From Rufibacter roseolus (GTDB lineage Bacteria; Bacteroidota; Bacteroidia; Cytophagales; Hymenobacteraceae), in the NCBI RefSeq assembly GCF_017916365.1, contig NZ_JAFMSU010000003.1, positions 992,001-1,056,000 of the forward strand: a stretch of 64,000 nt of DNA, given 5' to 3'. Below are positions 5,801 through 22,115 of the stretch, piece after piece. The first letter of the stretch is position 1. Every line of letters starts with the position of its first letter. The notes under the pieces are model-generated. The model made no database searches and was not told the origin of the DNA. It saw only the letters and a program-made list of their open reading frames with translations. Position numbers and translations under genes: made by a program.

Positions 5801-5846
5801 ATGTGTACGAGCACATATATGATAAAACTCTGCGTTTTCGTACACA
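5801..5846. promoter_or_regulatory. tandem LacI-type operators upstream of susC
   Basis: Site 1 (5801-5816) is ATGTGTACGAGCACAT, a near-perfect palindrome with a central CG, the hallmark of LacI/GalR operators. Site 2 (5831-5846) is TGCGTTTTCGTACACA, the same pattern with a weaker half. The central CGs (5808-5809 and 5839-5840) are exactly 31 bp apart, close to three helical turns. The nagB promoter has the same pair with the same spacing. Confidence 0.8.
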
Positions 5847-5862
5847 TTTTACCTTAAAGGGC

Positions 5863-5893
5863 TTGCTTATCTAAATTATAGTAGCTATGTTTA
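5863..5893 (+). promoter_or_regulatory. Bacteroidota-type promoter for the susC operon
   Basis: TTG at 5863-5865 (-33) is followed after 20 bp by TATGTTTA at 5886-5893 (-7), matching the Bacteroidota consensus of TTTG, 19-21 bp, TAnnTTTG. The nagB promoter has the identical -7 octamer and spacing. Confidence 0.7.
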
Positions 5894-6393
5894 AAACACC
5901 GAGACAAGAAAATCTCCATAAATAAGAGGTAGCTGCCCAGTTCATGTGTTCTCCTTTAAACCCATGGCGCAGCAAATTTCAGAACGGCTGGTTTGGAGAT
6001 GGAAAAGACGGTTTCAAAGCTGAGCCCTATGGGTGGCACGGCTTCTTTACTGGATTCCTGAGACAGGTATCAACAGCCATTCAACGGCGGTTGACCATTG
6101 ATCTGAATTATTCCCTGCGCATATAACAGAACTGACCTATACCAAACAGCAAGCCTTTATGGAACCGAACTACAAACCTTTGTCTCTCTCTTCATAGCCC
6201 AGGAAACCCTTAACAGGGTTAAAACACGGGACTTGAAAGTACCTACGCCCCTTTGCATTTCCCGCAAACCTGAAAACCGAAACAGATCAGGTTGATTGAC
6301 TTGGTATCAAACACTGGTTCCGCAGCCCATCACCCCCACCCATTCCTTATTGCTCTTTTAGTTGATCCTATCTCACCCATAAAATGTAATTAC

Positions 6394-9300
6394 ATGAAAA
6401 AAATGGTACAAAGATTTTTGAAGCTAACGTTCCTGATGCTGCTGCCTGTTTTGCAGGTAATGGCCCAGGGGCGGACCGTGACAGGAACCGTAACGGCCAA
6501 AGAAGACGGCCAGGCCTTGGCCGGGGTTAGCGTAGTGGTAAAAGGTACCACTACCGGTACCACCACTGACCCAAACGGTACCTACAGCATTCAAGTACCC
6601 GACCAGGGAGCCACGCTGGTTTTCTCTTTCATAGGGCTTCTCTCGCAGGAAGTAGCAGTACAAAACCAATCCACCCTGAACATACAGATGGCCCAGGACC
6701 GCAAAGCCCTGGATGAGGTAGTGGTGGTAGGCTACGGCACCCAGAAGAAAAGGGATTTAACGGGTGCCATCAGCTCAGTGAAAGCCGAGGACCTGGTGGT
6801 GAACTCCGGGGCCGCCTCCATCGGGCACATGCTCAAAGGCAAGGCCGCTGGTCTGATGATCCGGGAAAACAGTGCCCAGCCTGGCGGCGGATTGGACATT
6901 CTCATCAGGGGAGCCGGTTCCATCAACGCCAGTAACGCCCCATTGATTGTGGTAGACGGTTTCCCTATCTCAGACCTGCAGCAACCTGGCAGCGGCGGAC
7001 GCTACCAGGCCGGTACCCAAAGCATCCTGAACTCCTTCAACCCCAATGATATTGAGTCGGTGGAGGTATTGAAAGACGCCAGCGCCACCTCAATCTATGG
7101 GGCCCGGGCAGCCAATGGGGTTATCCTCATCACCACCAAACGCGGAAAATCCGGCAAAGCCGAGGTTCAGTACTCCAACACCTTTTCCCTTCAGCAATAC
7201 AACAATCCTTTTGAGGTGCTGCCCCTGAACGAGTGGATGCAGGTGCGTAATGAGGCCGCCTGGGAGCGCTGGAACTTTGACAACAACGTGATCCCTTACG
7301 GCACCAGAACCCTGGAAGAAGCGCAGGCAGATCCTGTTAATGGGCCATTTCGCCGATTATACACCCAAAACGCCATCAACAATGTAGGAAGAGGCACCGA
7401 CTGGATAGGTCTGGTTACCCGTGACGGATCAGTCCAGCAGCACAACCTCTCCTTAACCGGAGGTACAGAGTCTACCCGGTTCCTGCTGTCTGGCAACTAC
7501 TACAAGCACAACGGGGTCATTAAGAACTCAGGCATTGAGCGCTTCACGGTGAGAGCCAACGTAGACCAGGACGTAAACAAGTACATCAAGTTTGGCCTGA
7601 ACCTGACTGCCAGCCGTATCAACAATGACAACAGCCAGTTGGGCGGCGACCAATACGAGAACTCCGGAATCATCAGGGCGGCCATGCAGATGGGGCCTCA
7701 CATCAAACCCATTGACGAGAACGGCAATTACCCAATAAACCCGCTCCTGGCTCTGCAGCCCAACCCTTATTCTCTGCTCACCATTTCAGACGAGGGCCGC
7801 ATTGAGCGCATGTTGCTCAATTCCTTCGTAGACATCATCCCTATCCCAGACCTTACAATTCGGTTAAAAGGCGGCATGGACCGGGGCCTTACCAAGCGCT
7901 GGAATTACCTTCCCAAAACCACCATCCATGGCGCGCTTGAGTTCGGGCGGGCTTCTATCGCCGAGATCGACAAGAACGAGTACTTGATGGAGGCCACAGC
8001 TTCCTACGCCAAAACTTTTGCCACAGACCACCGAATCACCTTACTGGCAGGGGTTTCCCAGCAGAACTTCTACAATGATTACAACAACGTAGGCAACACC
8101 AACTTCATCTCAGACGCTTTCCTCTGGAATAACCTGGGTGCCGGAACCAGCACTAAAACCGTTGGTTCTTCCCGCTCAGAAAACGTTTTGGCTTCTTACT
8201 TTGGAAGACTGAACTACACGTTAAAAGACCGCTACCTGCTTACCCTAACCGTAAGGACAGATGGGGCCAGCGTGTTTGCCCGGAACAACAAATGGGGTAC
8301 CTTCCCATCGGTAGCGGTGGGTTGGAACGTGGCCGAAGAGCCTTTCTTCGGCAGCCTGGCCAATGTGGTTTCGCAGTTCAAACTCAGAGCCAGCTACGGC
8401 CAAACCGGGAATGCCTCCATAGGCAGCAACGCCTTTGCCGCGTATTACGCCTACCCTGCCTGGTTATCAGGTGAAGACGCCCAGTTGATTGGGGTATCCC
8501 TTTCCAGATTGGAGAACCCAGACCTGAAATGGGAAACCACCACAGAGGCCAACTTCGGCTTGGATTTCTCGCTCTTCAATGGCCGCATAGACGGTTCCCT
8601 GGAAGTGTACAACCGGGTTATCTCAGACCTGCTTTTCGCCAAACCTATCAACTCCTACCATCCTATCAACACCGTGATGGCTAACGTTGGCGAGACGCAG
8701 AGCAAAGGCTTTGAACTGACCGTGAGCACCCGCAATTTTCAGCGCAATGACTTTGAGTGGAGATCTATCTTCACCTTCTCCAAATTCAAAAACAACTGGA
8801 AAGAAAGAACACCAGACTGGAAACCTGCCGTGTATGAGAGCGCCGATGACCCCATCCGAGCCATTTACGCCCGGTTATCAGACGGCATCATGCAGGTGGG
8901 CGAAGAGGTGCCTTCCCAGCCGGAGTTGAAGCCTGGCATGATCAAAATTAAGGACATTGACGGGTATGTGCGCGATGCCAACGGCAACCCGGTGGTGGAT
9001 GAGAACGGCCGTTTCCTGCGCACCGGGGCACCAGACGGCAGAATTGACGATGCAGACACCAAGCTGCTCGGCACCTCAGACCCCAGCCTGATTGTGGGCA
9101 TGACCAACATCTTCACCTACAAAGGATTCAGCCTGAACTTTGATTTCAACGGCATGTTCGGCCGCAAAATGGCCGACCCTAACTTCACTACCTATGGCGT
9201 AAGCGCAGACGGCGTTTACACCTTCGGGTACAACGCCTTGAGCAGCGTGAAAAACCGTTGGACTCCGGAGAATCCATCCACTACCCAACCTAGTTCTTTC

Positions 9301-9558
9301 TATGGCTGGTCTCCTTACGGCGTAGGTGATTTCTTCCTGCAAGACGCCTGGTTTATCCGGTTACAGAACGTATCGCTGGCCTACACCCTGCCCTCTAAAT
9401 GGACCGGAAAAGTATTCTCCAGAGCCTCTATCCACGTGGCGGCGCAGAACCTGTTCGTGATCACGCCTTATGACGGCGTAGACCCAGAGACCGATGCCTA
9501 CACCGCGGCTTACCCTAACGTGAAAACCTTCACCACCGGTATCAACCTGACTTTCTAA
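6394..9558 (+). CDS. susC: SusC/RagA-family TonB-dependent glycan transporter
   Basis: Outer-membrane 22-stranded barrel that imports oligosaccharides with TonB energy, of 1054 residues. The chosen ATG at 6394 gives MKKMVQRFLKLTFLMLLPVL, a normal signal peptide; the upstream frame lacks one. Order: signal peptide (1-24), carboxypeptidase D-like regulatory domain (RTVTGTVTAKEDGQALAGVSV to about 100), SusC signature and plug (DEVVVVGYGTQKKRDLTGAIS at about 108-127), then the barrel ending in GINLTF with a terminal aromatic residue. It is first in the rightward operon and its stop overlaps an upstream in-frame ATG of susD. The partner genes and the adjacent amino-sugar enzymes suggest a hexosamine-containing ligand. 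Confidence 0.96.
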   Translation: MKKMVQRFLKLTFLMLLPVLQVMAQGRTVTGTVTAKEDGQALAGVSVVVKGTTTGTTTDPNGTYSIQVPDQGATLVFSFIGLLSQEVAVQNQSTLNIQMAQDRKALDEVVVVGYGTQKKRDLTGAISSVKAEDLVVNSGAASIGHMLKGKAAGLMIRENSAQPGGGLDILIRGAGSINASNAPLIVVDGFPISDLQQPGSGGRYQAGTQSILNSFNPNDIESVEVLKDASATSIYGARAANGVILITTKRGKSGKAEVQYSNTFSLQQYNNPFEVLPLNEWMQVRNEAAWERWNFDNNVIPYGTRTLEEAQADPVNGPFRRLYTQNAINNVGRGTDWIGLVTRDGSVQQHNLSLTGGTESTRFLLSGNYYKHNGVIKNSGIERFTVRANVDQDVNKYIKFGLNLTASRINNDNSQLGGDQYENSGIIRAAMQMGPHIKPIDENGNYPINPLLALQPNPYSLLTISDEGRIERMLLNSFVDIIPIPDLTIRLKGGMDRGLTKRWNYLPKTTIHGALEFGRASIAEIDKNEYLMEATASYAKTFATDHRITLLAGVSQQNFYNDYNNVGNTNFISDAFLWNNLGAGTSTKTVGSSRSENVLASYFGRLNYTLKDRYLLTLTVRTDGASVFARNNKWGTFPSVAVGWNVAEEPFFGSLANVVSQFKLRASYGQTGNASIGSNAFAAYYAYPAWLSGEDAQLIGVSLSRLENPDLKWETTTEANFGLDFSLFNGRIDGSLEVYNRVISDLLFAKPINSYHPINTVMANVGETQSKGFELTVSTRNFQRNDFEWRSIFTFSKFKNNWKERTPDWKPAVYESADDPIRAIYARLSDGIMQVGEEVPSQPELKPGMIKIKDIDGYVRDANGNPVVDENGRFLRTGAPDGRIDDADTKLLGTSDPSLIVGMTNIFTYKGFSLNFDFNGMFGRKMADPNFTTYGVSADGVYTFGYNALSSVKNRWTPENPSTTQPSSFYGWSPYGVGDFFLQDAWFIRLQNVSLAYTLPSKWTGKVFSRASIHVAAQNLFVITPYDGVDPETDAYTAAYPNVKTFTTGINLTF

Positions 9559-9587
9559 TGAACCTGCATCACTTAACATATAAGACC

Positions 9588-11051
9588 ATGCGCAAAGTAT
9601 TCCTGTCTCTTGCATTTCTCCTCCTGCTGGGCAGTTGCACAGATGATCTAGAGTCCATTGATTATTCTGAGATAAACCCCAGCATTTTCCCGCAGTCTGA
9701 GGCTGACGTGGAAGCCATGGTGATGGCCTGCTATTATCCCTTGCGGGGCTCCTGGGGCAACGGTATCCATACCACCTCAGAGAACGGCATCATGTTCATC
9801 AACGACGCCACCACTGAGATCCTCAACGGAAACTTCGGCTCGCAGATGTTGGCCTCCCTCCACAACTACAAACCCACCGACGAAGGTATTACCCGCTTCT
9901 ACGATCTCTTCTACAACAAAATCAGTCTGATGACCTTGACCATTGATCTGATCAGCAAGGCCCAGGTGAGCGAGTCGGTGAAGAAAAAAGCGATTGCTGA
10001 AATCCGGGCTGCCAGGGGCTTGTTGGCCTACGAGCTTTTTGACATGTACGGTCCGTTGGTGATTGCGCCGCTGGAGGTACTGCAAAGCCCATTGACAGAA
10101 ACCCCATTGGCCCGTTTGTCACACCAGGAAACCGTAGCCTTCATTGAAGCCGACCTGGTAGCCGCCGCCGAAGACCTGCCCCACCCGGCCCAAGCCGAGT
10201 ACGGCCGTTTTAGCAAGGGTTTGGCAAAAATGGTGCAAATACGCCTGAACCTGCACGAGAAAAACTGGAGCAAGGTGGTAGAGTTATCCAATGAGATCAT
10301 CAATTACGGCTACTACACCCTTACTCAGGATTACGAGAGCATGTGGGATCTGGAAGGCGCCAAAAACAGCAAGGAAGTGATCTGGGCCATTCCCTGCGAT
10401 TACGAAGGCACTAGCGAAAACCAGTGGCAACTGATGGTACTGCCCTCCAACTACCCGGTAAAAGGCGGCTGGGGCACCATCCAGAGCACCTGGTGGTTCT
10501 ATGACACCTTTGAGGAAGGCGATGAGCGTAAAACCATGCTGATTTCCGAGTACACCGGCACCGATGGCAACACCTATAACCGCGCCAACCCAGGTACGGT
10601 CATGAACATGGGCCCTATCCCGCTGAAGATTAACCCAGACAACGCCAGAACCACCGCCCTTACTACCGTGGATATCATCGTCTACCGCTACGCGGATGTG
10701 CTCTTGTCTAAAGCCGAGGCCCTGGCCAATGCCGCTGGAACTCCTTCTGCTGAGGCCATGGAGCTGGTGAACGTCATCCGGAGAAGAGCCGATCTGCAAG
10801 ACAAAAACCTGGCCGACTACAGCTCCTTGGCCGCTTTCAATGATCTTATCCTTACCGAGAGAAGCCACGAATACTGGTGCGAAAACGGCCAGTACCGCTC
10901 TGATCTTATCCGCCACGGCAAGTTCGTGGAGCGGGCCCGGGAGGTGAAAGGCTCAACCTATACAGATGAAAACAAAGCTCTCTATCCCTTCTCTCTCAGA
11001 ACTGTGAGCGAAGGAAAAGGGAAATTCATCCAGAACCCTGGCTACTTCTAA
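9588..11051 (+). CDS. susD: SusD/RagB-family glycan-binding lipoprotein
   Basis: Surface lipoprotein of 487 residues that caps the SusC barrel and binds glycan. The ATG at 9588 gives MRKVFLSLAFLLLLGSC, a lipoprotein signal with Cys17 as the lipidated residue followed by acidic residues (TDDLE), which fits surface export. Family features include KKAIAEIRAARGLLAYELFDMYGPLVIAPLEV and the C-terminal SusD domain with VDIIVYRYADVLLSKAEALA and ending NPGYF. An in-frame ATG at 9558 overlaps the susC stop but would put ten residues before the signal peptide. It lies 29 bp after susC. Confidence 0.95.
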   Translation: MRKVFLSLAFLLLLGSCTDDLESIDYSEINPSIFPQSEADVEAMVMACYYPLRGSWGNGIHTTSENGIMFINDATTEILNGNFGSQMLASLHNYKPTDEGITRFYDLFYNKISLMTLTIDLISKAQVSESVKKKAIAEIRAARGLLAYELFDMYGPLVIAPLEVLQSPLTETPLARLSHQETVAFIEADLVAAAEDLPHPAQAEYGRFSKGLAKMVQIRLNLHEKNWSKVVELSNEIINYGYYTLTQDYESMWDLEGAKNSKEVIWAIPCDYEGTSENQWQLMVLPSNYPVKGGWGTIQSTWWFYDTFEEGDERKTMLISEYTGTDGNTYNRANPGTVMNMGPIPLKINPDNARTTALTTVDIIVYRYADVLLSKAEALANAAGTPSAEAMELVNVIRRRADLQDKNLADYSSLAAFNDLILTERSHEYWCENGQYRSDLIRHGKFVERAREVKGSTYTDENKALYPFSLRTVSEGKGKFIQNPGYF

Positions 11052-11183
11052 TAGCTCCGGCGGGAGCGGCAAATAATTGGTTGCTGCTCCCGCCAACAGG
11101 GTTTCCTTTTGCCGGAAATCCTCCACCGCATGTAAGAAGTAACCTACCATCACTACAAGTTTCAACCGAGAGAATTGCCTCCA

Positions 11184-12557
11184 ATGAAAGGAAAGCTGCT
11201 TACCGTCATCATCCTGAACCTGTTGCTCACCTGTATCTCCGCCTGCTCAGGTAGCGGCGAGGAACCGGGGCCGGAGCCCGAGGTAAAGCCTAATCTCACC
11301 TATGCCCTGTCTAATGAGATTTTCTCCAACCCAGAACGGGGCTTCATGCGGCTGTTCCCGGTTTACGCCGAAGGCAATCCGCTGAACTCCAGCACGCTCA
11401 GTTCTCTCAGAAACAACCACATCACGCTCATCCAAAGGGTCTATTACCTGGAGAAGTTCAAAGCCGCCCCGCTCAGTCCAGCCCAGCTCTCTTTGATCCA
11501 AACCGATATGAACCTGATCAGGCAAGCCGGGTTGAAGTGCGTGCTTCGGTTTGCCTACACAGACCAGATGAACGGCACAGATGCCCCATTGGCCACCATT
11601 GAACAGCACCTGGACCAGCTGAAACCCGCGTTTGAGGCCAACAAAGACGTGATTGCGTTTGTACAGGCGGGTTTCATAGGTCCCTGGGGCGAGTGGCACA
11701 ACTCCACCAATGGCCTGAACACCACCGAAAACGAAAAAAAGGTCCTCTTCAAGTTACTGGATGTGCTGCCCACCGCATTGATGGTGCAAGTAAGGACCCC
11801 GGCCAAAAAACAGCAGATCTTCGGGACCACCAACCCTTTGAGCAAAGAGGTGGCTTACACAACTGAGAAGATTGCCCGGGTGGGCCATCACAACGACTGC
11901 TTTATGTCTGGTGGCACAAACTACGGCACCTACACCAACATCCAGACGGAGAAAACCTACATCAGCAACGAGGCTTTGTACGTGCCCACCGGAGGCGAAA
12001 CCTGCCCTCCGCAGGCCGGCTACAACCCTAACTGCACCGAAGGCCGCACCGAGATGCAGCTTCTGAAATGGACTTACCTGAACCTGGACTATTACCAACC
12101 CACCCTCAACGCGTGGCGGAATTCGGGCTGTTTTGATGAATTCCAGCGCAATCTGGGTTACCGGCTGGCCCTGGTAGATGCCACTTTGGCGGCCCAGGTG
12201 GGCACCAACCAAGCCTACAAACTAGAAATTAACCTCACAAACAAAGGATACGCCCCGCTCTATAGCCAGAAGAACACCTGGCTGGTGCTCATAAACAAAG
12301 CCTCGGGCGCGCTTCATCAGGTACCGGTGCCTGTGGACCTTCGCGAAGTAAAACCCGGCACTACCTACAAGATGAACCAAAATGTGAGCCTGACGGGTAT
12401 TCCGGCCGGCGACTATGACCTGTTCCTCAAGATCACGGATAAGGCGGATGCCCTGAAAGACCGTCCGGAATACAGCGTGAGACTAGCCAATACCGATGTC
12501 TGGGTTCCGGATTCCGGCCTGAATAGCTTGAAACACCAATTGAAAGTAGGGAACTAA
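11184..12557 (+). CDS. DUF4874/DUF4832 lipoprotein, first paralogue
   Basis: Predicted surface or periplasmic lipoprotein of 457 residues; the ATG at 11184 gives MKGKLLTVIILNLLLTCISAC with a lipobox Cys. The N-terminal part matches DUF4874 (FSNPERGFMR, LKCVLRFAYTDQ, FVQAGFIGPWGEWHNS, LMVQVRTPAKKQ) and the C-terminal part DUF4832 (RVGHHNDCFMSGG, GGETC, NLGYRLALVDATL, YSVRLANTDVW). The first part looks like a TIM-barrel glycosidase core and the second like a beta-sandwich. The Glu in GPWGEWH, also present in the paralogue, is a plausible catalytic residue; that is inference. It is third in the susC operon. A polysaccharide-cleaving role fits, but the activity is not established here. Confidence 0.85.
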   Translation: MKGKLLTVIILNLLLTCISACSGSGEEPGPEPEVKPNLTYALSNEIFSNPERGFMRLFPVYAEGNPLNSSTLSSLRNNHITLIQRVYYLEKFKAAPLSPAQLSLIQTDMNLIRQAGLKCVLRFAYTDQMNGTDAPLATIEQHLDQLKPAFEANKDVIAFVQAGFIGPWGEWHNSTNGLNTTENEKKVLFKLLDVLPTALMVQVRTPAKKQQIFGTTNPLSKEVAYTTEKIARVGHHNDCFMSGGTNYGTYTNIQTEKTYISNEALYVPTGGETCPPQAGYNPNCTEGRTEMQLLKWTYLNLDYYQPTLNAWRNSGCFDEFQRNLGYRLALVDATLAAQVGTNQAYKLEINLTNKGYAPLYSQKNTWLVLINKASGALHQVPVPVDLREVKPGTTYKMNQNVSLTGIPAGDYDLFLKITDKADALKDRPEYSVRLANTDVWVPDSGLNSLKHQLKVGN

Positions 12558-12596
12558 CCCCTGCGCAGAACAGAACTTACTTAAAGCTCCAGAGAC

Positions 12597-13466
12597 ATGA
12601 AAAACAAACTCTTACTTTTCTTTGGCTTAAGCTTCCTGCTGGTGGCCACCTTTTCCTGCGAGGAAGACGATGAAGGTTCCGGCACCAAGGCCGTCTTCAG
12701 CTACGTAACCGATGGTTTCGTGGTCAATTTCACCGATTTCTCCCAGAACGCCGCTGAATATCTCTGGGATTTCGGGGATGACAGTGAGACCTCTACCCAG
12801 TCAAACCCCACGCACGTTTACGGCAAGAAAGGCGACTACCTGGTGACTTTGACCGTTAAAAACAACGGCGAGACCAGCACCTTCCAGGACTCGGTGTACG
12901 TTTTAGGGCCGAATATTAAAATAGACGGCGATTTCACCGATTGGGAGCACGTTCCCTACACCCACACCAATGACGAAGGCACCGGCGGTACGCTGCTGGC
13001 CGTGAAAACCTTCGCCTCCGCCGGCGCCCTGAACTTCTACCTGGAAGGCACCCAGGACTTCAACCTGGCCGTGATAGACCTGTACCTTGATGCTGACAAC
13101 AACCCCGAAACCGGCTTGAAATCCTGGATGTATCCTGCCGGCTCCGGCGCCGATTTCCTTCTGGAAGGCAATTACAATCCGGGCACTCCGGCAGAGTCGG
13201 CAGGCAGCATGTTTGCCCACGTGGGGCCTGGCAATGACTGGGCCTGGAACGAAGTAGCCTCCTTTGGCCAGGCCGTGCAGTTCTCGGCCATGAAAACCGT
13301 GGGTGGCAAGAAAGTACTGGAGTTCGCCGTCAAGCGCGAAGGCCTGGGCAACATGAAAAAATTCGTCAACTTCGCCATTGTGGAGAGCACCGCAGGCTGG
13401 GCCGAGATCGGTAACCTGCCTTACAACAAGCAGCCTACCTCCAAGTTCGCCACCATAGAACTGTAG
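12597..13466 (+). CDS. PKD-domain lipoprotein with CBM9/DOMON-like C-terminus
   Basis: Lipoprotein of 289 residues: the signal MKNKLLLFFGLSFLLVATFSC has a lipobox Cys followed by EEDDE, a surface-export type signal. Residues 30-100 form a PKD domain (AEYLWDFGDDSETSTQSNPTHVYGKKGDYLVTLTVKN). Residues 105-285 begin IKIDGDFTDWEHVPY and contain LYLDADNNPETGLKSW, as in CBM9/DOMON-like sugar-binding domains. It has the layout of a SusE/F-like or other surface glycan-binding protein. It lies 39 bp after the first DUF4832 gene and is very probably cotranscribed with it. Ligand unknown; a hexosamine glycan is inferred from the locus. Confidence 0.8.
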   Translation: MKNKLLLFFGLSFLLVATFSCEEDDEGSGTKAVFSYVTDGFVVNFTDFSQNAAEYLWDFGDDSETSTQSNPTHVYGKKGDYLVTLTVKNNGETSTFQDSVYVLGPNIKIDGDFTDWEHVPYTHTNDEGTGGTLLAVKTFASAGALNFYLEGTQDFNLAVIDLYLDADNNPETGLKSWMYPAGSGADFLLEGNYNPGTPAESAGSMFAHVGPGNDWAWNEVASFGQAVQFSAMKTVGGKKVLEFAVKREGLGNMKKFVNFAIVESTAGWAEIGNLPYNKQPTSKFATIEL

Positions 13467-13614: not shown

Positions 13615-15150
13615 ATGCCAAACAAACAAACGATCCTTCCTATCCGGAAAACCAGTTGTATTTTGGGCCTTCTCCTCGCGCAGCTGTTTATTGCGACTTT
13701 CGGCCAGGCCCAGACCAAAATTACCTATACAGAGAGTACCGAGGATTTCGCTAATCCGGAACGGGGCTTTTACCTGGCCTCCGGTGGAAAGCCAGGCTCT
13801 TTATCTGCCGAGGAACTGACCAAACTAAGAAACTTGCCGGCCAATCAGAACATCACGCCCAGCGCCAAGTACTCGGCTAGAGTAACATTGTTGTACCGCG
13901 GCTACCTACTCTCAGATTTCAAGACCAAGCCCATCAGCGAAGAATTTCTGCAGTTGATCCGACGGGATATGGACGCCACCCGGAAAGCCGGCCTTAAAAT
14001 GATTTTGCGGTTTGCCTACACTAATGACACCAAAGCCGGCGACTGCAAAGATGACTACAAGATTTGTCCGCCCTACGGCGATGCTTCCAAGCCCATCGTC
14101 CTGCAACACATCTCGCAGCTAAAGCCCATTCTCCAGGAGAACGCCGATGTGATTGCCGTCATGCAGCAGGGTTTCATTGGCATCTGGGGCGAGAACTACT
14201 TCACCGATTATTTCGGGGACGCTTCCAACAACGGCCAAGGCGTCATCAATGACAGCAGCTGGCTCAACCGCAATGAAGTGACCAAAGCCCTCCTAAACGC
14301 ATTGCCCAAAAACCGGATGGTGCAGGTGAGAACGCCCCAGATGAAGCAGCGGTTTGTCTACGGCCCTCAAGCGCCGGTAACCTCTAGCCCCACCTCTGAG
14401 CAGGAAGCCTTCACCCACGAGGACCGCGCCCGCGTAGGGCTGCACAATGATTGTTTCCTGGCCAGTGAAGACGATTACGGCACCTTTGCTGACTACGGCA
14501 ACTCTTCCACCAAGCGGGGCCCGGCCAATGAAGTCATGCGCAAATACTTTGAGGCCGAGAGCAAGTACGTAGCCGTGGGTGGTGAAACCTGCGACAATGC
14601 CTTCAGCCCGCAGAACGACTGCGCCCCCGCCGGACACGCCGAGCAGGAAATGGCCGCCATGCACTACAGCTACCTCAACAGCTCCTACAACAACCAGGTG
14701 AACAATGACTGGGTCACCGGCGGCTGCATGGACAACATCAAACGCCGGCTAGGCTATAGGTTCACCCTGAGATCAGCCACCTTGCCCGTGAAAGTCAAGA
14801 AAGGGAAAGCCCTGTCCATCGCGTTGAACCTGGAGAACACCGGCTTCGCCTCCCCTTACAACCCGCGCCCGGTACAACTGGTCCTCCGGAACAAAAAGTC
14901 CGGTCAACTGCATGTTCTGCCCCTCACCACCGAAATCCGGAAATGGTTTCCCGGCCAGGTCACTGTCTCCCAGGAACTGACCCTTCCTGCTTCCTTAGCT
15001 AAAGGCGAGTATGACGTGCTGCTCAACTTCCCGGATTCCTACGAAAGCCTCTCCAAACGCCCGGAATACAGCATCCGGCTCGCCAACAACGATGTCTGGG
15101 AAGAGACCACCGGCTTCAACCGTTTGAACCACACCATCAAGGTGAATTAG
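13615..15150 (+). CDS. DUF4874/DUF4832 exported protein, second paralogue
   Basis: Exported protein of 511 residues with a signal peptide ending near FGQAQ and no lipobox, so probably periplasmic or secreted. It shares with the first paralogue the blocks NPERGFY, LKMILRFAYT, MQQGFIGIWGENYF, MVQVRTPQMKQ, RVGLHNDCF, GGETC, RLGYRFTLRSATL and RPEYSIRLANNDVW. It has insertions of about 10-30 residues, including a Cys-containing loop (AGDCKDDYKICPPYGD). It lies 148 bp after the PKD gene with a palindrome between. Two paralogues with different export signals suggest cleavage at the surface and then inside the periplasm. This is inference from layout only. Confidence 0.85.
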   Translation: MPNKQTILPIRKTSCILGLLLAQLFIATFGQAQTKITYTESTEDFANPERGFYLASGGKPGSLSAEELTKLRNLPANQNITPSAKYSARVTLLYRGYLLSDFKTKPISEEFLQLIRRDMDATRKAGLKMILRFAYTNDTKAGDCKDDYKICPPYGDASKPIVLQHISQLKPILQENADVIAVMQQGFIGIWGENYFTDYFGDASNNGQGVINDSSWLNRNEVTKALLNALPKNRMVQVRTPQMKQRFVYGPQAPVTSSPTSEQEAFTHEDRARVGLHNDCFLASEDDYGTFADYGNSSTKRGPANEVMRKYFEAESKYVAVGGETCDNAFSPQNDCAPAGHAEQEMAAMHYSYLNSSYNNQVNNDWVTGGCMDNIKRRLGYRFTLRSATLPVKVKKGKALSIALNLENTGFASPYNPRPVQLVLRNKKSGQLHVLPLTTEIRKWFPGQVTVSQELTLPASLAKGEYDVLLNFPDSYESLSKRPEYSIRLANNDVWEETTGFNRLNHTIKVN

Positions 15151-15631: not shown

Positions 15632-17068
15632 CTAAGCTCTCACATTCGTGGTTCCGCCACCCTGCAGGGTTAATTCCACCGGTTTGTTTTTCTGCCAGGC
15701 GCCAACGGTGAAATCAGGCACGTCGATGGAGTTGGAGCGGTTGGCTACGGACCATTCGCTCAGCGGCGCGACGGAGCTCCAAAGGGCGGCATCGTAAACA
15801 TCTTGGTCCAGTGGCAGGCCGTTGCGGAGGCAATCTACTAAACGCCATTCCATCAGGAAGTCCATGCCGCCGTGGCCGCCAATCTTTTTGGCCATCTCAC
15901 CCAGTTTCTTGATGAGCGGAGGTGTGTACTGTTCTTCCACTTTCTTGAACTGTTCCGGGGAGAGCCAATCTTCGTGGCTGGAAGCGATGCGGGCGGGGTC
16001 AGGCCATTTCTGGGCGATGCCTTTGGTGCCGCTCACCAGATGGATGCGGGAGTATGGGCGCATAGAGGACACATCGTGCTGGATCATGATGGTACGGCCG
16101 CGTTTGGTCCTGATGGTGGTGGTGTTCATGTTGCCCCGGAAATTCATCTTCGCGAACTCCTGGAAGAAACTATCTTTGGCGGCCAACTCCTTCGCTTTAG
16201 GGCCCATGCTGAAATCATTGGAGGACACGGAAGTGAGGTAATCCATTTGGTCGCCGCGATTTATATCCATGACCTGACAGATGGGACCTAGGCCGTGGGT
16301 TGGGTAAAGGCTGCCGTTGCGGCCGTTTTCCCTCAGGCGCCACATGTTATAATAAGCCTCCTCGGTATCGCTGGTTTTAGCGAAGTTCAGATCAATGAGG
16401 TTGTGGATGTAGGCGCCCTCGCCGTGTACCAGCTCCCCGAAGAATCCCTGCCGGGCCATGTTCAAGGTGAGCATCTCGAAGAAGTCATAGCAGCAGTTCT
16501 CCAGCATCATGCAGTGTTTCTTTGTGCGCTCAGAGGTCTCCACCAGTTGCCAGCACTCCTCTAGGGTCTTAGCGGCGGGCACTTCCACAGCCACGTGTTT
16601 GCCGTGTTCCATGGCGTAAACGGCCATGGGCGTGTGCAGGTGCCAGGGCGTGGCGATGTATACCAGATCAATATCGTCGCGGTTACACAGTTCTTTCCAG
16701 GCATCTTCCTTGCCAGAATAGGTCACAGGTTTGTGGATGGAGCCTTCCAGTTTCTTCTGAACGGCGGAAATCCGCTCCGGACGGATGTCACAGAGGGCAT
16801 TGATCTCCACGCCTTCAATGTGGTTCATGCGTACCACCGAGGCCGGTCCGCGCATGCCCAACCCAATGTAGCCCACCCGCACTTTGTCCATTCTGGGCGC
16901 GGCGTACCCGCTCATATTGAAAAGCTGCCGATGGGGTTTCTTAGCTTGGCTTTGGATCTGGGAAAGTGCCCCGGCCGTGGAAGCACAGCCACTGATGAAA
17001 CCGGAACTCACCAGGCCAACGCCGGCCAAACCAGCCAGCTTAAGGAAATCTCTCCTATCATTACTCAT
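15632..17068 (-). CDS. GH109-family NAD-dependent alpha-N-acetylgalactosaminidase
   Basis: Gfo/Idh/MocA-fold glycosidase of 478 residues that cleaves terminal alpha-GalNAc by a redox mechanism with bound NAD. The N-terminus (NDRRDFLKLAGLAGVGLVSSGFISGC) is a twin-arginine signal with a lipobox Cys, so the protein is exported already folded. The Rossmann motif is KVRVGYIGLGMRG. The family signatures are HVAVEVPAAKTLEECW, MLENCCYDFFEMLTLNMARQGFFGELVHGEG and YPTHGLGPICQVMDINRGDQMDYLTSVSS. The last is closely typical of GH109 rather than of other oxidoreductases. It is the last gene of the nagB operon and points to GalNAc in the substrate. Confidence 0.88.
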   Translation of the reverse strand: MSNDRRDFLKLAGLAGVGLVSSGFISGCASTAGALSQIQSQAKKPHRQLFNMSGYAAPRMDKVRVGYIGLGMRGPASVVRMNHIEGVEINALCDIRPERISAVQKKLEGSIHKPVTYSGKEDAWKELCNRDDIDLVYIATPWHLHTPMAVYAMEHGKHVAVEVPAAKTLEECWQLVETSERTKKHCMMLENCCYDFFEMLTLNMARQGFFGELVHGEGAYIHNLIDLNFAKTSDTEEAYYNMWRLRENGRNGSLYPTHGLGPICQVMDINRGDQMDYLTSVSSNDFSMGPKAKELAAKDSFFQEFAKMNFRGNMNTTTIRTKRGRTIMIQHDVSSMRPYSRIHLVSGTKGIAQKWPDPARIASSHEDWLSPEQFKKVEEQYTPPLIKKLGEMAKKIGGHGGMDFLMEWRLVDCLRNGLPLDQDVYDAALWSSVAPLSEWSVANRSNSIDVPDFTVGAWQKNKPVELTLQGGGTTNVRA

Positions 17069-17251: not shown

Positions 17252-17896
17252 CTACAGAAACTGCAGTTCCCCGAAGTACTCGGGCAGGTGGAAGTTGGGC
17301 GAGGCAGCCTTAATGGTGTTCCAGGTCAGGTAATGGGGCTTGGGCAAGTCATCGCCACACTTGTAGAAGTTCACTTTACAGGTCTGCTCGTTTAAAGAAG
17401 TAAACCCATGGAAGCAGAAAACCTCCACCGGTATCACCAGCGTCAATTCCCACTTCACGGCAGCATTGGGCAGCTCTCCCACTGAGAGCTGCGCGTAGCG
17501 TTTTATTTCCCTGATGACGGCCTCGGAAAGGAACCGGCGGTTTTCCTTGCCGGCCCCATAGGCCATGAGGCAGGAACCTAGGCTGTTGAATTCCAAGTTG
17601 TAATAGGCTCTCTCGTCATTGAAGGCGATGAACAGCTCCACGCAGCTGTCGCGGTACACGGGGTCGTTGGTTTTGCGGAACACCGCCCTGATGGCGTCCT
17701 CCTCCACGTAGAACTTCACAAAAAAGCAGTCGTTGCTATGGGCCACCGCGAAAGACACCGATGGTTTATAGGGGTAATCGGGCCAGGGCGCAGTATTAAT
17801 GGCATGCTTCTCCAGCTGGTCCAGTTGTTCTGAGACTTCCTCCAAAGGAGATTCCCGGTCTAACCGGAACAATAGCGGCACGTCTAATTGCTTCAT
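17252..17896 (-). CDS. CBM9-like domain protein
   Basis: Protein of 214 residues from the ATG at 17894-17896; a longer frame would overlap the preceding gene. There is no signal peptide, so it is probably cytoplasmic. It resembles single-domain carbohydrate-binding family 9-like proteins: INTAPWPDYPYKPSVSFAVAHSNDCFFVKFYVEED, DPVYRDSCVELFIAF, YNLEFNSLGSCLMAYG. Many such proteins in Bacteroidota sit in glycan loci without a known role. It begins 7 bp after the NahK-like gene, so it is coexpressed with the kinase. A sugar-sensing or sugar-binding role is inference. Confidence 0.75.
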   Translation of the reverse strand: MKQLDVPLLFRLDRESPLEEVSEQLDQLEKHAINTAPWPDYPYKPSVSFAVAHSNDCFFVKFYVEEDAIRAVFRKTNDPVYRDSCVELFIAFNDERAYYNLEFNSLGSCLMAYGAGKENRRFLSEAVIREIKRYAQLSVGELPNAAVKWELTLVIPVEVFCFHGFTSLNEQTCKVNFYKCGDDLPKPHYLTWNTIKAASPNFHLPEYFGELQFL

Positions 17897-17903
17897 AAGG
17901 GCT

Positions 17904-19052
17904 TCAGGCTTTGGTGGTGACTTCGGCAAGGCGGGTTTCCTGCACTACTTTCTCTAAAATGCCTTGCAGCGCCGACTGCAGCGACTCCACTTGCTTCACC
18001 AACTGAAACTGCGCCCGGCATCGCTGCAGGTTATGCACTGGGAAATGGATCTTGTAATAATGGTCGCCGTCTATGTAATCGGTGAGGAAGCGCAAGCCCA
18101 TGATGAAAGGCAGCAACAGCACCCCGTGCAAGAGGGAGGCGATTTCATGGTCAGAAAGGGCGTTGCTAGTCTCCTCCAGAAAGCCTTTGGCAAAGGCCTC
18201 AAAAAGGGCAAGGTTCACCTGAATCTTCTCCAATTGCGGCTCGTCTTCGGGCGCGGTGTTGACGGTGGTCCGGATAGCATCCCCAAAATCGTAGGCCACG
18301 TACCCGGGCATGACGGTATCCAGATCGATGACGCACTGCGCCTTGCCGTCTTTGTCCAGGAGCACGTTGTTGAACTTGGTGTCATTGTGGGTAATGCGCA
18401 GCGGCAGTTCTCCCCGCTGGCCCATGTGGTAAATGGTGCTCATGGCCTCGGCTCGCTCCTCTACAAACGCAATCTCCGCTTCCACTTCCGCTACCCTCCC
18501 TACCGGATCGGCGGCCACAGTTTCCCTGAACAGCCGCAGACGGTTCACCACGTTATGGAAATCGGGTATGGTGTCATGCAGGAGTTCCACGGGCAGATCG
18601 GCCAGTAGGGCCTGGAACTTCCCAAAGGCTTTGCCGCCTTCGTAGGCCTGCGCTGGGGAAGTCACCATATCATAACCCAGAGTTTCATCCAGGAAATAAT
18701 ACATGCGCCAGTAGTTGCCCTCCGCGTCATGGTAGAACCATTTCTGGTGGACCGTTGGGATAAGCGTCAGTACCTCTTTCTGGGGCTGTGCGCCCGGCGT
18801 ATTCTCTAGCTTTTGGCGCAGGTGCGTGGTCACCACCTGGATATTGTCCATGAGGGCGGGCACGTTCTTGAAGACATGGTGGTTCACGCGCTGCAGCAGG
18901 TAATCTGGGCTGCCCGGCTGGGAGTTCATGACGTGGTAGGTGTCATGGATGTGACCGGAGCCATGCGGCACCACCTGCGCCACACCGCCTTTTATGCTGA
19001 ATTGCGAGAGTATGGGGGACAATTGTCCGGCCGGCGCTGTTGAATTTGTCAT
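17904..19052 (-). CDS. NahK-like N-acetylhexosamine 1-kinase (APH family)
   Basis: Cytoplasmic kinase of 382 residues in the aminoglycoside phosphotransferase fold. The ATG at 19050-19052 starts 1 nt after the previous stop codon. The catalytic loop is RITHNDTKFNNVLLD with Asp and Asn in place, followed by the metal-binding IDLDTVMPGYVAYDFGDAIR. The N-terminal HGSGHIHDTYHV and LLQRVNHHVF patches match the N-acetylhexosamine 1-kinase group. It would convert GlcNAc or GalNAc to the 1-phosphate, the substrate for the pyrophosphorylase encoded just upstream. The alternative is another sugar 1-kinase, but the neighbours argue for HexNAc. Confidence 0.82.
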   Translation of the reverse strand: MTNSTAPAGQLSPILSQFSIKGGVAQVVPHGSGHIHDTYHVMNSQPGSPDYLLQRVNHHVFKNVPALMDNIQVVTTHLRQKLENTPGAQPQKEVLTLIPTVHQKWFYHDAEGNYWRMYYFLDETLGYDMVTSPAQAYEGGKAFGKFQALLADLPVELLHDTIPDFHNVVNRLRLFRETVAADPVGRVAEVEAEIAFVEERAEAMSTIYHMGQRGELPLRITHNDTKFNNVLLDKDGKAQCVIDLDTVMPGYVAYDFGDAIRTTVNTAPEDEPQLEKIQVNLALFEAFAKGFLEETSNALSDHEIASLLHGVLLLPFIMGLRFLTDYIDGDHYYKIHFPVHNLQRCRAQFQLVKQVESLQSALQGILEKVVQETRLAEVTTKA

Positions 19053-19053
19053 C

Positions 19054-19974
19054 TTATCTGATCGTTTCTGTATTCCTGGCCCAAAGATTCTCTGGGTACA
19101 CACCTGCCCTCACCAACTCCCGAAGCGCCTCTACGGCTACCGGCTTGTCCTCCGGGTACGTCACCCCGAACCATTTCTCGGGGGTGGGCAAAAGCTTCAC
19201 GCGGGTGACGCCGTCTTTCACCAATTTATCCAGCACCAGAGGCAGGAAGAACTCCGCTTTGGGGTTCTGGGCACTCTGCTGGAGGAATTCCTTCAGGTAT
19301 TGCTCAAAGTAGGGCAGCAGGTCAGGGGAAAAACCCATCAGGTTCATGGAAACCATCTGGTCTTGGGCCAGCGGAACCTGCTCCTGGGTAGGGGTAATTG
19401 CCATGATACCGTTGGCCGTCCGTTCAATGTGCGTCTGTTCCGTGATGCTGATCAGGTTGCCGCCCGCATCCACCTCGCAGATGCCTCGGGAAACCGCCCC
19501 GTGCTCAGACAGAGTGTTGGCCAGCAGATACCCCACCAGGCCGCATTTCTGGCCCGTTTTCAGGAAATCGGCCATAATCCTGAAAGACTCGTAGCCGTAA
19601 AAATCGTCGCCGTTGATGACCGCGAAAGGCCCTGTGAGTTTAGAACTCGCCACCCACACGGCATGCGCCGTTCCCCAGGGCTTCACCCGGTTCTCCGGCA
19701 CGGTGAAGCCATCGGGCAGGAGGTCCAGTTCCTGCAGCACGAAATCCACTTCCACGGTCTGGCTGAACTTATCCTGCATGGCGGCCCGGAACTCCTTTTC
19801 AATGGACTGCCGGATAATGAACACCACCTTCCCGAAACCGGCTTTGATGGCATCGTAAATGGAGTACTCAATGATGGTCTCGCCGTTGGGGCCGAAAGCC
19901 TCCAGTTGTTTCAGGCTCCCGTAGCGGGTAGCCATGCCAGCCGCCAGGACCAGCAAGGTTGGTTTATCGTTCAT
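19054..19974 (-). CDS. sugar-nucleotide pyrophosphorylase (nucleotidyltransferase)
   Basis: Cytoplasmic nucleotidyltransferase of 306 residues. The N-terminal nucleotide-binding loop is LLVLAAGMATRYGSLKQ. The metal and sugar sites include KPWGTAHAVW and FAVINGDDFYG. The arrangement resembles the uridylyltransferases paired with NahK in hexosamine salvage. It would join HexNAc-1-phosphate and UTP to UDP-HexNAc. It lies 72 bp after nagB and 1 nt before the kinase gene, so the three are one transcript. The exact nucleotide (UTP or another) is inferred from pathway logic. Confidence 0.82.
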   Translation of the reverse strand: MNDKPTLLVLAAGMATRYGSLKQLEAFGPNGETIIEYSIYDAIKAGFGKVVFIIRQSIEKEFRAAMQDKFSQTVEVDFVLQELDLLPDGFTVPENRVKPWGTAHAVWVASSKLTGPFAVINGDDFYGYESFRIMADFLKTGQKCGLVGYLLANTLSEHGAVSRGICEVDAGGNLISITEQTHIERTANGIMAITPTQEQVPLAQDQMVSMNLMGFSPDLLPYFEQYLKEFLQQSAQNPKAEFFLPLVLDKLVKDGVTRVKLLPTPEKWFGVTYPEDKPVAVEALRELVRAGVYPENLWARNTETIR

Positions 19975-20046: not shown

Positions 20047-21960
20047 TTAGAAGTGGTAGCGCTTGAAGGCCTCCATGGCCTCGTACTCGGTTAAGCCCAG
20101 TTGGTCGTAGATGCGGGCCGTGGCACGGTTCCGGTCCTCGGCGCGTTGCCAGAATTCCCGTTTGTCGTTGCCGGGGAAAACCGGACTGTCTTTCTGCGAC
20201 TGGTGCTTGAAGATGGCCTTGCGTTTCCGGAGCAACTCCTCGGGGCTGATGGGCACCGCCATCTCAATGTCCTCAATGTCCCACTCCTGCCAGGCGCCGC
20301 GGTACAGCCACACATAGCAGTCCTGCATCCAGGGTTCGTGTTTCAGGCGGTTGATAGCTTCCAGAATGGCATCTAGGCACACCCGGTGGGTTCCGTGCGG
20401 GTCCCTCAGATCGCCGGCGGCGAAGATCTGCTGAGGCTTTACTTTGCTTAGCAGATCGGCGACCGCCTGGATGTCTTCCTCGCCCAATGGTTTTTTCTTT
20501 ACCTGGCCGGTTTCATAGAAAGGCAGGTTCATGAAATGCACGTTCTCTTTCTTTACGCCGCAAAAGCGGCACGCTGCCAGCGCCTCCCCTTGCCGGATGA
20601 GGCTTTTGATGCATTGCACAATCTCTGTATCCTCGGCACCCAGTTTCTTCTGCTCCAGGAAATCCTCTACTTCAGTATGCAGGCCTTGGAACTCCGCCGT
20701 AGCAATGCCCAGCTTTCTGGAGAGCCCCAGGGCGAAATCCGCGAACCGGTGCGCATCATCATCAAATACGGCGATGTTCCCCGAGGTCTGGTAGGCAACG
20801 TGCACGTTGTGGCCCTGATCGGCGAGGCGCAGCAGGGTGCCACCCATGGAGATGACGTCATCATCTGGGTGCGGGCTGAAGATGAGGGACGTTTTGGGGA
20901 AGGGGTTAGCGCGCTCGGGCCGATGGCTGTCGTCTGAGCCGGGTTTGCCGCCAGGCCAGCCGGTGATGGTATTCTGGATGGCGTTATGCACCTGTATGTT
21001 CAGGCTGTAGGCCGAGCCTACACGTACCAGCAAATCGGTGAGGCCCCAGTGACGGTAATCTTCATCGGTGAGTTTCAGGAGCGGTTTTTTGGCCTGCAGG
21101 CTTAACCAGATCACGGCCCGGCGCATGAGGTTCTGATCCCAATCCACCAGCCCCACAAGCCACGGCGTTTTAATGCGGGACAGCTCAGAGGCCGCCCATT
21201 GGTCCAGGATTACGGTGACGCGCTCATGCTGCTGCAGAAAAGAAGCCGGTACCTCCTCTGAGATCTTGCCTTCCACCATCTGCCGCACAATAGGCGCCTT
21301 GCCCTCGCCCCAGGCCATCATTATGATTTTGCGGGCTTTCATGATGGTGCCCACGCCCATGGTAATGGCCCGCAGCGGCACAAATTCCTCCTTGATGAAA
21401 TCCTTGGTGGCATCGACGATGGTAAGCGGATCCAGTTTCACCAGACGAGTATGGGAAGTGAGGCCCGAGCCCGGTTCATTGAACCCAATATGCCCCGTAC
21501 GGCCAATGCCCAGCAACTGCACATCTATGCCGCCCGCTTCTTCTATGAGCTGCTCGTAGGCCGCGCAAAACTCCGACACTTTTTCAATGGGCAGGGAGCC
21601 GTCTGGGATGTGCACGTTCTCCGGCAGGATATCTACGTGTTTGAACAAGTGCTCCTGCATGAAATGCACATAACTCTGCAAGGCATCGGGCTGCATGGGG
21701 TAGTATTCATCCAGGTTGAAGGTGATTACGTTACGGAAGCTCAGGTTCTCGTCTTTGTGCAGGCGCACCAACTCCTGGTAGACTCCTATGGGCGAAGAAC
21801 CAGTGGCCAAACCCAGGACTACATTCTCCCCGGTTTTCTGTTTCTCCCTGATGTTAGCGGCAATGGAGTGGGCAATACGTCGGCAGCCCTCCTCAGGAGT
21901 GTCAAAGATGGTGACGGGAAGCTTCTCAAGGGCAGTGGCAGAATAGGTTAATGTTTCCAT
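20047..21960 (-). CDS. nagB: glucosamine-6-phosphate deaminase fused to a PIG-L/LmbE deacetylase
   Basis: Two-domain cytoplasmic protein of 637 residues. Residues 1-280 are NagB, which turns glucosamine-6-phosphate into fructose-6-phosphate and ammonia: LGLATGSSPIGVYQEL (49-64), FNLDEYYPM (81-89), GIGRTGHIGFNEPGS (151-165). Residues 355-600 are a PIG-L/LmbE zinc deacetylase: SPHPDDDVISMGG (362-374) carries the metal-binding His-Pro-Asp-Asp. Stand-alone NagB is about 260 residues. Such fusions are known in Bacteroidota; the deacetylase could free the amino group before deamination. It is first in the leftward operon and has its own operator pair. Confidence 0.93.
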   Translation of the reverse strand: METLTYSATALEKLPVTIFDTPEEGCRRIAHSIAANIREKQKTGENVVLGLATGSSPIGVYQELVRLHKDENLSFRNVITFNLDEYYPMQPDALQSYVHFMQEHLFKHVDILPENVHIPDGSLPIEKVSEFCAAYEQLIEEAGGIDVQLLGIGRTGHIGFNEPGSGLTSHTRLVKLDPLTIVDATKDFIKEEFVPLRAITMGVGTIMKARKIIMMAWGEGKAPIVRQMVEGKISEEVPASFLQQHERVTVILDQWAASELSRIKTPWLVGLVDWDQNLMRRAVIWLSLQAKKPLLKLTDEDYRHWGLTDLLVRVGSAYSLNIQVHNAIQNTITGWPGGKPGSDDSHRPERANPFPKTSLIFSPHPDDDVISMGGTLLRLADQGHNVHVAYQTSGNIAVFDDDAHRFADFALGLSRKLGIATAEFQGLHTEVEDFLEQKKLGAEDTEIVQCIKSLIRQGEALAACRFCGVKKENVHFMNLPFYETGQVKKKPLGEEDIQAVADLLSKVKPQQIFAAGDLRDPHGTHRVCLDAILEAINRLKHEPWMQDCYVWLYRGAWQEWDIEDIEMAVPISPEELLRKRKAIFKHQSQKDSPVFPGNDKREFWQRAEDRNRATARIYDQLGLTEYEAMEAFKRYHF

Positions 21961-22022
21961 AGACGGGCAGATTTAGAAAAGCGTAACCAATGGGGAAAGA
22001 CCAGAAATGTTGATTCCTTATC

Positions 22023-22054
22023 TAAACATAGAAACATAAAACAAGAATAACAAA
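22023..22054 (-). promoter_or_regulatory. Bacteroidota-type promoter for the nagB operon
   Basis: On the minus strand TTTG (22051-22054) is followed after 20 bp by TATGTTTA (22023-22030). The transcript would start near 22016, about 55 nt before the nagB ATG. Confidence 0.75.
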
Positions 22055-22068
22055 GGAATCCGTTAAAA

Positions 22069-22115
22069 ATGTGTTCGAGCACACTTAAAAAAGTTTCATT
22101 TGTGCACGAACACGG
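22069..22115. promoter_or_regulatory. tandem LacI-type operators upstream of nagB
   Basis: Sites ATGTGTTCGAGCACAC (22069-22084) and TTGTGCACGAACACGG (22100-22115) share the TGTGnnCGnnCACA pattern. The central CGs (22076-22077 and 22107-22108) are 31 bp apart. The nearest CG lies 22.5 bp from the edge of the -33 box, exactly as at susC. Confidence 0.82.

Follow-up and report, generated by a model that had tools for sequence, protein, structure and literature searches.

The 64,000-nucleotide stretch of Rufibacter roseolus DNA analysed here (contig NZ_JAFMSU010000003.1; hereafter the window) holds a gene for a LacI-family regulator and, 16 kb apart, the promoters of susC and nagB, each with a pair of LacI-type sites upstream of its -33 box. 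LacI proteins are usually presumed to be repressors unless shown otherwise, and the question raised by this locus is how such a regulator would act from an upstream position. We consider it fairly probable that the regulator acts from about -58 and -89 as a class I-type activator; its binding, cooperativity, polymerase contact and sign, as well as the operons and their substrate, are what we infer from sequence.

The two promoters were found to be alike. Each contains two CG-centred sites 31 bp apart, a 20-bp spacer and the -7 octamer TATGTTTA, and in both of them 22.5 bp separate the nearest CG centre from the edge of the four-base -33 box (CTTG in susC, TTTG in nagB), which confirms at both promoters the shared architecture described in an earlier note on this DNA. 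On the forward strand, the distal site of the susC promoter is located at 5802-5815 (TGTGTACGAGCACA, no mismatches) and the proximal site at 5833-5846 (CGTTTTCGTACACA, two mismatches, conserved in Rufibacter relatives), followed by the TTG of the -33 box at 5863-5865 (CTTG at 5862-5865) and the -7 box TATGTTTA at 5886-5893, 46 bases past the G of the proximal centre. On the reverse strand, the nagB promoter has its distal site at 22101-22114 (one mismatch), the proximal site 31 bp away at 22070-22083 (no mismatches), the TTG at 22053-22051 (TTTG at 22054-22051) and the -7 box TATGTTTA at 22030-22023. All four boxes match the consensus, and transcription would be predicted to start at about 5897-5900 (forward strand) for susC and at about 22016-22019 (reverse strand) for nagB.

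The central CG is present in all four sites and fits a palindromic operator of the LacI/GalR type; the site word has the same frame as the symmetric lac operator (TGTGAGCGCTCACA). The consensus TGTGNNCGNNCACA / TGTGnnCGnnCACA is matched exactly by only two of the four sites, and thus of the word proposed in the earlier note the CG centre stood, and the exact form TGTGnnCGnnCACA held at just these two. Single sites with up to two mismatches number 22 in the window, which is not above the 27.6 expected by chance. Downstream of either promoter, no site word with at most one mismatch occurs in the window, and the presence of a word with two mismatches at 21756, within nagB, is no more than chance would give. 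The proposed genome-wide search for pairs with 31-bp centre spacing, allowing at most three mismatches in the 20 specified bases, returned only the two known places in the 5.5-Mb genome, and the reversed control pattern gave no match there. The pattern of one site plus promoter matched both promoters genome-wide, at zero and one mismatch; the one extra match at two mismatches was the nagB pair read from the opposite strand, and the 11 matches at three mismatches were at the level of the control pattern (12 in all).

Rufibacter is a member of the Hymenobacteraceae, and the geometry was followed across four genera: Rufibacter, Pontibacter (g3), Adhaeribacter (g4) and one further genus (g16). A weight matrix built from 20 pairs (40 sites) was run over the intergenic DNA of 63 regions (positions 1-30000 of the window, L074, L080-L110 and L129-L158), or 62 after the duplicate L074 was dropped; L062-L073 and L075-L079 lay outside the matrix scan, and L001-L032 were scanned for 31-bp pairs only. 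Not all scanned regions hold a LacI gene, and L101, L103, L104, L106 and L108, for example, were chosen for their pairs. Sites were present in 53 of the 62 regions and formed 81 clusters. Promoters were searched gene-ward, between 45 bp upstream and 75 bp downstream of the proximal site, as a TTTG-like box, a spacer of 18-21 bp and TAnnTTT, and 66 of the 81 clusters had one with a score of at least 15. In 50 of these 66 scorable promoters the -7 octamer starts 44-47 bp past the proximal centre, compared with 3 of the 135 scorable cases among 810 random intergenic anchors; the fixed upstream distance from site to promoter that marks class I-type control was thus found. The spacer is 20 bp long in 45 of the 50 fitting promoters, the central C and G are kept in 50 and 49 of their proximal sites, respectively, and 38 promoters are left after those at least 75% identical are dropped. 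In the regions fetched by their LacI gene (L129-L157), 14 of 23 promoters fit the 44-47 bp distance. The genes behind the 50 fitting promoters encode SusC (18), NagB (12), nucleotidyltransferase (12), a kinase or fused kinase (4), GH109 (1) and other proteins (3); these gene types recur across genera, which supports the earlier idea of a single regulon for import, glycan cleavage and amino-sugar use. Beyond the four genera, the upstream layout was seen in a Cytophagales metagenome-assembled genome (MAG; L255), with a 32-bp pair, TTTG, a 20-bp spacer and TAAATTTG at +47.

The distal site of the 50 fitting promoters stands at 31 bp in 29 cases, at 21 bp in six, at 32 bp in four and at 30 bp in two, with none found in nine; as this count allowed distal sites only at 21 and 30-32 bp, the spacing itself was judged from a scan of 14-70 bp. 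At a score of at least 9, the scan gave second sites at 31 bp (34), 32 bp (8), 33 bp (4), 30 bp (2) and 21 bp (3) and at no other distance, 51 in total compared with 0.32 in shuffled flanks, the matches at 33 bp being partly shifted registers of GTGTGCGCACAC. The whole-turn helical spacing of tandem operators was therefore observed, with 21 and 30-33 bp as the only distances. At the looser score of 3, second sites were counted at 21 (8), 29 (4), 30 (4), 31 (34), 32 (9), 33 (6), 34 (2), 38 (1) and 63 bp (1). The fairer set for spacing is L129-L157, chosen by LacI gene, in which 13 of 33 clusters have a second site (score at least 2.8): seven at 21 bp, four at 32 bp, one at 30 bp and one at 63 bp. 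Nearly all of these spacings amount to two or three turns of the helix, which would place both dimers on one face of the DNA. The distance from the proximal site to the promoter is nearly fixed, and the distal site lies at two turns, at three turns or was not found. The proximal site is followed by a T-tract, with T at +8 in 50 of 50 promoters, at +9 in 48 and at +10 in 40 (mean 4.2 T of 5); on the outer side of the distal site this tract has no mirror (1.1 A of 5 across 29 promoters).

The protein that binds these sites is likely to be the neighbouring LacI regulator, which is encoded on the reverse strand at 3155..4222 and combines a helix-turn-helix (HTH) domain (VSTGTVDRVL) with a Peripla_BP_4 ligand domain; we base this on linkage, on co-occurrence and on the fact that the word is found again next to orthologues of another family. 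The protein belongs to the LacI/GalR family, as it exceeds the cut-offs for PF00356 (61.9 bits) and PF13407 (117.6 bits), and it matches the LacI-family chains 3gbv and 3ctp in the PDB. The named NCBIfam LacI equivalogs (RbsR, CcpA, PurR, GalR and others) gave matches to 17 families, the best of them at 63.3 bits with a cut-off of 382. At an E value of 0.001, LacI matches were found in 22 of 29 genomes, its own included, and among these 29 genomes matches of at least 58% identity were confined to the Rufibacter group (g1, including Sabulibacter ruber) and G017.

An orthologue at E 1e-60 is present in 47 of 120 family genomes. The site pair (at most two mismatches) occurs in 17 of these 47 and in 1 of the 73 genomes without an orthologue (Fisher p = 1.9e-7, a guide only, as genomes of one family share kinship). 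The limit of two mismatches was used because pair searches at three gave false matches in LacI-free genomes; two of these, sampled at L036 and L041, fall within long reading frames. The one LacI-free genome with a pair is G062, where the pair is outside any frame longer than 200 aa, and the five g1 genomes without an orthologue (G006, G007, G009, G013 and G014) have no pair. Three g3 genomes (G080, G062 and G090; L059, L060 and L061) share a 31-bp pair of different make-up outside long frames, and G080 and G090 have LacI.

Within the Hymenobacteraceae, the variable residue of the HTH sequence VSxGTVDRV tracks the base adjoining the central CG. A C is found there in 66 of 68 half-sites of V-type proteins, in 3 of 94 for T and in 1 of 42 for K and R taken together, and among the rarer residues in 0 of 6 for A, 0 of 8 for S, 0 of 2 for N and 1 of 4 for I; for this count five regions took their residue from the LacI gene elsewhere in the same genome or, in the case of L106, were entered as K. 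Because V occupies two separate branches in a tree of 48 LacI proteins, the link amounts to about two events. The other five LacI loci of the window genome showed no comparable pair of like sites: palindromes there stand singly, one of them adjoining its own LacI gene, and four weak pair-like spacings had unlike partners. The pair as a general habit of the LacI genes of this genome found no support at these five loci. Among the palindromes there (L179:9675 and 9893; L180:13809; L183:9845), those of the TAACGTAATCGATTACGT type adjoin a LacI gene and precede susC, and one palindrome, TTATGCCAACGTTGGCATTT, is common to two of them. Overall, the earlier suggestion that the adjacent LacI protein is the binder gained support from co-occurrence across genomes and from a motif that follows the orthologue into another family.

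That family is the Sphingobacteriaceae. LacI orthologues of 53-60% identity were found in Mucilaginibacter, Pedobacter, Dyadobacter and allied MAGs, together with more distant ones. Of 79 LacI loci, 47 lie outside the four genera and were scanned, the other 32 being Rufibacter-group, Pontibacter or Adhaeribacter loci, one partial locus and seven distant matches. The site is present in 34 of the 47 regions, and the genes behind it include those for CBM9, NahK-like kinase, SusC, NagX-like and GH109 proteins. Pairs are rare there: 69 of 80 clusters are single, two have a second site at 32 bp and nine at 56-58 bp. The second sites at 56-58 bp in Mucilaginibacter and Pedobacter were seen at L205, L206, L231, L238, L240 and L248. 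Outside the four genera the upstream geometry is not enriched, as 3 of 41 scorable promoters, that of L255 among them, and 11 of 161 scorable random anchors (of 642) fall at 44-47 bp.

The position of the strict box TAnnTTTG showed a different arrangement in the two families. Among 69 non-redundant site-orientations from 37 regions of Sphingobacteriaceae and allied MAGs, 15 have the box at -16 to -13 and 21 at +16 to +23, and none has it at +44 to +47 (0.23 expected per 4-bp bin). Among 151 site-orientations from Hymenobacteraceae, 19 have it at +44 to +47, 12 at +76 to +79, which is the view from the distal site, and 8 at -16 to -9 (0.42 expected per bin). In the first class of Sphingobacteriaceae sites the TG of the operator completes the -7 box TATATTTG, and in the second class the operator covers the expected place of the -33 box; both are placings classically taken by repressors. 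A tree of 90 LacI proteins has one supported group of 39 rows, made up of Sphingobacteriaceae, allied MAGs and two Dyadobacter, with core geometry in 23 rows and upstream geometry in none. The 'core' label needs at least four changes on this tree, one of them for the 39-row group; the root, and hence the direction, is not settled, and the 'core' and 'both' labels in Hymenobacteraceae include loose matches in T-rich DNA. A core-type site also occurs at the Rufibacter/Pontibacter-group loci L137 and L099, at the latter before an unrelated gene. Certain residues part the two clades, e.g., R in 24 of 25 against K or E in 22 of 22 at one position of the HTH domain; these prove nothing, because the core-geometry set is one clade. 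At the g16 loci L083, L084, L085 and L087, the word TATTTTTG runs up to the proximal site, an arrangement also found in the core geometry of Mucilaginibacter; it may be the remnant of a promoter or, the DNA being T-rich, a chance match.

The sites and their conservation were computed, as were the near-fixed geometry, the association with LacI and the recurring target genes. For the mechanism we take the -7 octamer, by assumption, to span -11 to -4, which puts the site centres at about -58 and -89. One LacI dimer would then bind at about -58 and a second at about -89, the distal one contributing cooperative binding. The T-tract that follows the proximal site and precedes the -33 box could be a dock for the C-terminal domain of the polymerase alpha subunit, and the regulator would most likely contact polymerase from upstream as a class I-type activator. 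LacI would thereby switch on two convergent operons, one of susCD and genes for DUF4832 proteins and the other of nagB, the nucleotidyltransferase, NahK, CBM9 and GH109 genes, which would serve the uptake, cleavage and use of a glycan rich in N-acetylhexosamine. The earlier note had seen in the unusual upstream position a hint of activation, and the near-fixed promoter distance across genera strengthens it. The comparison of the two families suggests that one LacI regulator may work oppositely in them. We put forward only tentatively that the orthologous regulon has changed sign, with an upstream class I-type activator on paired same-face sites in Hymenobacteraceae and, in Sphingobacteriaceae, a repressor whose operator, of nearly the same motif, forms part of the -7 or -33 box, the word and gene set being kept and the site moved by about 30-60 bp.

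Several results weigh against activation by LacI. The -7 and -33 boxes of both promoters are consensus matches, and such core promoters are not clearly weak, since the other genes of these regions are most often preceded by the combination of TTTG and TAnnTTTA (11 compared with 0.5 expected; small counts). Of the 81 clusters, 31 do not fit the geometry, 15 being without a promoter of score 15 and 16 having it elsewhere, e.g., at +37 for the susC pair in both G008 and G010. The count of 34 second sites at 31 bp is inflated, some regions having been selected for 31-bp pairs. One of the 17 co-occurring genomes, G080, is counted through the pair of different make-up on another contig. The link between residue and motif fails outside Hymenobacteraceae, where T proteins have C in 53 of 136 half-sites (and A in 11 of 18, V in 3 of 4 and I in 3 of 4); it therefore supports binding only within that family. 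Moreover, the Mucilaginibacter and Pedobacter orthologues have core-promoter sites typical of repressors, and a single ligand logic for both clades would be simpler if both repress. Finally, the sign is a matter that we infer, and the same geometry could repress, as GalR does from -60.5 on the polymerase face.

The last point leads to the strongest rival, a GalR-like contact repressor, in which sugar-free LacI would hold polymerase inactive from about -58 and leave when the sugar arrives. We regard it as a serious though rather unlikely alternative. GalR at -60.5, on the face of polymerase, represses gal P1 through contact inhibition (PMC4693257), a contact repressor would share its ligand logic with the Mucilaginibacter and Pedobacter orthologues, whose sites cover -7 or -33, and the evidence on binding, pairing and fixed distance fits it equally. 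However, any place over the core promoter would suit a contact repressor, and most Hymenobacteraceae sites avoid it, keeping to a 4-bp range of distances. The gal system also has a second operator at +53.5 with looping, of which the window, having no word with at most one mismatch downstream of either promoter, offers no counterpart. Activation is ranked above contact repression because the sites are outside the core promoter, have a near-fixed place and are accompanied by a helper site.

Binding of the sites by another regulator, e.g., one of the Crp type, with the LacI gene as a bystander, is improbable. The TGTG and CACA half-sites do look like Crp half-sites, -58 and -89 resemble class I Crp positions, and the link between residue and motif fails in Sphingobacteriaceae. 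The Crp motif is TGTGA-N6-TCACA, however, and here the gap between TGTG and CACA is six bases, not eight, around a CG centre; furthermore, the pairs track the LacI gene across genomes, being absent from the five g1 genomes without the orthologue, and the same word stands beside LacI orthologues in another family. Looping between the two operator pairs across 16 kb, raised in the earlier note and conceivable in that one chromosome holds both pairs, is unsupported and very improbable, as each promoter has its own close pair, the pairs of G008 are on separate contigs (C1 and C12), G001 has a single pair match, and the C-terminal leucine heptad tail by which looping LacI of the E. coli type forms tetramers was not found, by eye, at the C-terminus of the window protein. 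Equally slight is the probability that the promoters are mere copies whose geometry was inherited without function: many are related and the Rufibacter susC copies are alike, but 38 promoters less than 75% identical, standing before different genes, keep the 44-47 bp distance while flanks and distal spacing vary. Chance was considered and set aside.

The susC group and the nagB group are convergent, and each would form one operon, judging from gene order and gaps. On the forward strand lie susC (6292..9558; TIGR04056, 1.6e-260; ATG probably at 6394, giving 1054 aa), susD (9558..11051; PF07980, PF14322) and, at 11175..15150, the genes for a DUF4874+DUF4832 protein, a PKD protein and a second DUF4874+DUF4832 protein. 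The second operon, on the reverse strand, is headed by nagB with a C-terminal PIG-L domain (20047..21960; TIGR00502, NF002557, PF01182, PF02585), followed by genes for a sugar-1-phosphate nucleotidyltransferase-like protein (19054..19974; PF00483; PDB 3pnn, 'conserved domain protein', 9.3e-94), a NahK-like N-acetylhexosamine 1-kinase (17904..19103; PDB 4wh1, 4.9e-76, and 4ocj, 7.1e-76), a CBM9_2 protein (17252..17929; PF16011) and GH109 (15632..17068; PF21252; PDB 6t2b, a GH109 protein, and 2ixa, an alpha-N-acetylgalactosaminidase). A TIM-barrel protein of Streptococcus intermedius with a DUF4832 domain disperses Pel-held aggregates (PMC12345266), and UDP-GalNAc is thought to be the building block of Pel (PMC7112168). 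A glycan rich in N-acetylhexosamine, perhaps Pel-like, is a fair guess for the substrate. A NagX-like transmembrane acetyltransferase gene (4450..5550, reverse strand; NF046061, 1.6e-28, 99.9 bits with a cut-off of 480; no Pfam match) is linked to the locus and could possibly be controlled by the paired sites.

In other genomes, the second target of the earlier note widened to the amino-sugar operon of nucleotidyltransferase, NahK, CBM9 and GH109 genes, with nagB as its first gene in some genomes only. In the Rufibacter-group genome G002 (L093:2304-2348), the nucleotidyltransferase gene was the first gene found behind the nagB-type promoter. In four Pontibacter-group genomes (L129, L134, L138 and L141), the nucleotidyltransferase and the NahK-like kinase are apparently fused in a frame of 691-695 aa, preceded by a proximal-type site and promoter. 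A second LacI-type gene, with the HTH sequence STSTVSRAL read in L134, L138 and L141, starts 111-122 bp behind a lone site with the same word (L129:3453, L134:16710, L138:16766 and L141:16784), which might possibly reflect a cascade or autoregulation. The susC leader (5897-6394) is about 500 nt long, and the search of it for known RNAs gave one match at chance level (E 0.56, 14.8 bits with a cut-off of 50). The distance from the proximal site to the susC start is 438-570 nt in five of six close Rufibacter-group loci and 363 in the one with a longer predicted gene; it is 421-586 nt in most g16 loci, though most SusC proteins there are only about 27% identical to that of the window.

Compared with known systems, the placing of the sites is comparable to class I activation by Crp, in which the site centre is near -61.5 or whole turns further up and the alpha domain of polymerase is contacted; the protein family and the motif are different. 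GalR at the external gal operator represses one promoter and activates the other, and as in our case a LacI-family dimer lies at about -60, GalR acting on polymerase by contact; unlike the close pair found here, with no downstream operator seen, gal has a single operator at this place and the other at +53.5 with looping (PMC4693257). Tandem LacI-family sites precede 1118 operons; their spacing peaks at 13 bp and, in what was interpreted as cooperative binding of two dimers, at 22 and 32 bp (Ravcheev et al. 2014, PMC4052901). These operators resemble ours in the LacI family, the palindromic sites and the helical spacing; the Rufibacter pair, unlike them, lies at an almost constant distance upstream of a promoter of the Bacteroidota type. 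The word 'Bacteroidetes' is absent from the text of that paper, though Bacteroides thetaiotaomicron is named in its introduction. The same work describes Cra/FruR and PckR, LacI-family members that are activators or for which the position of their sites predicts a dual role, in the central metabolism of Proteobacteria, whereas the regulon considered here concerns glycan use in Bacteroidota.

The Bacteroidota LacI regulators compared were those of Bacteroides and Algoriphagus (PMC3878776, PMC5507952). KdgR, UxaR, UxmR and UxuR are likewise predicted LacI regulators of sugar use, but for hexuronates (PMC3878776), as is UxuR2, whose predicted regulon includes a GH109 gene (PMC5507952). N-acetylglucosamine in B. 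thetaiotaomicron is assigned to the ROK protein NanR (PMC3878776/PMC5507952). A promoter geometry of this kind was not found for these LacI regulators in the accessible parts of the two papers, nor did a literature search, run mostly without subscription journals, return a publication on this geometry, this regulon or the contrast between families. Paired LacI sites at helical spacing and LacI-family activators are thus already known (PMC4052901), and what is new is the conserved upstream LacI geometry in Bacteroidota together with its contrast to the core geometry beside orthologues. The conserved upstream geometry would provide a rule, based on sequence only, for telling whether a LacI site in this phylum activates or represses, and two families that resemble each other in motif and target genes would constitute a natural experiment on a change of regulator sign.

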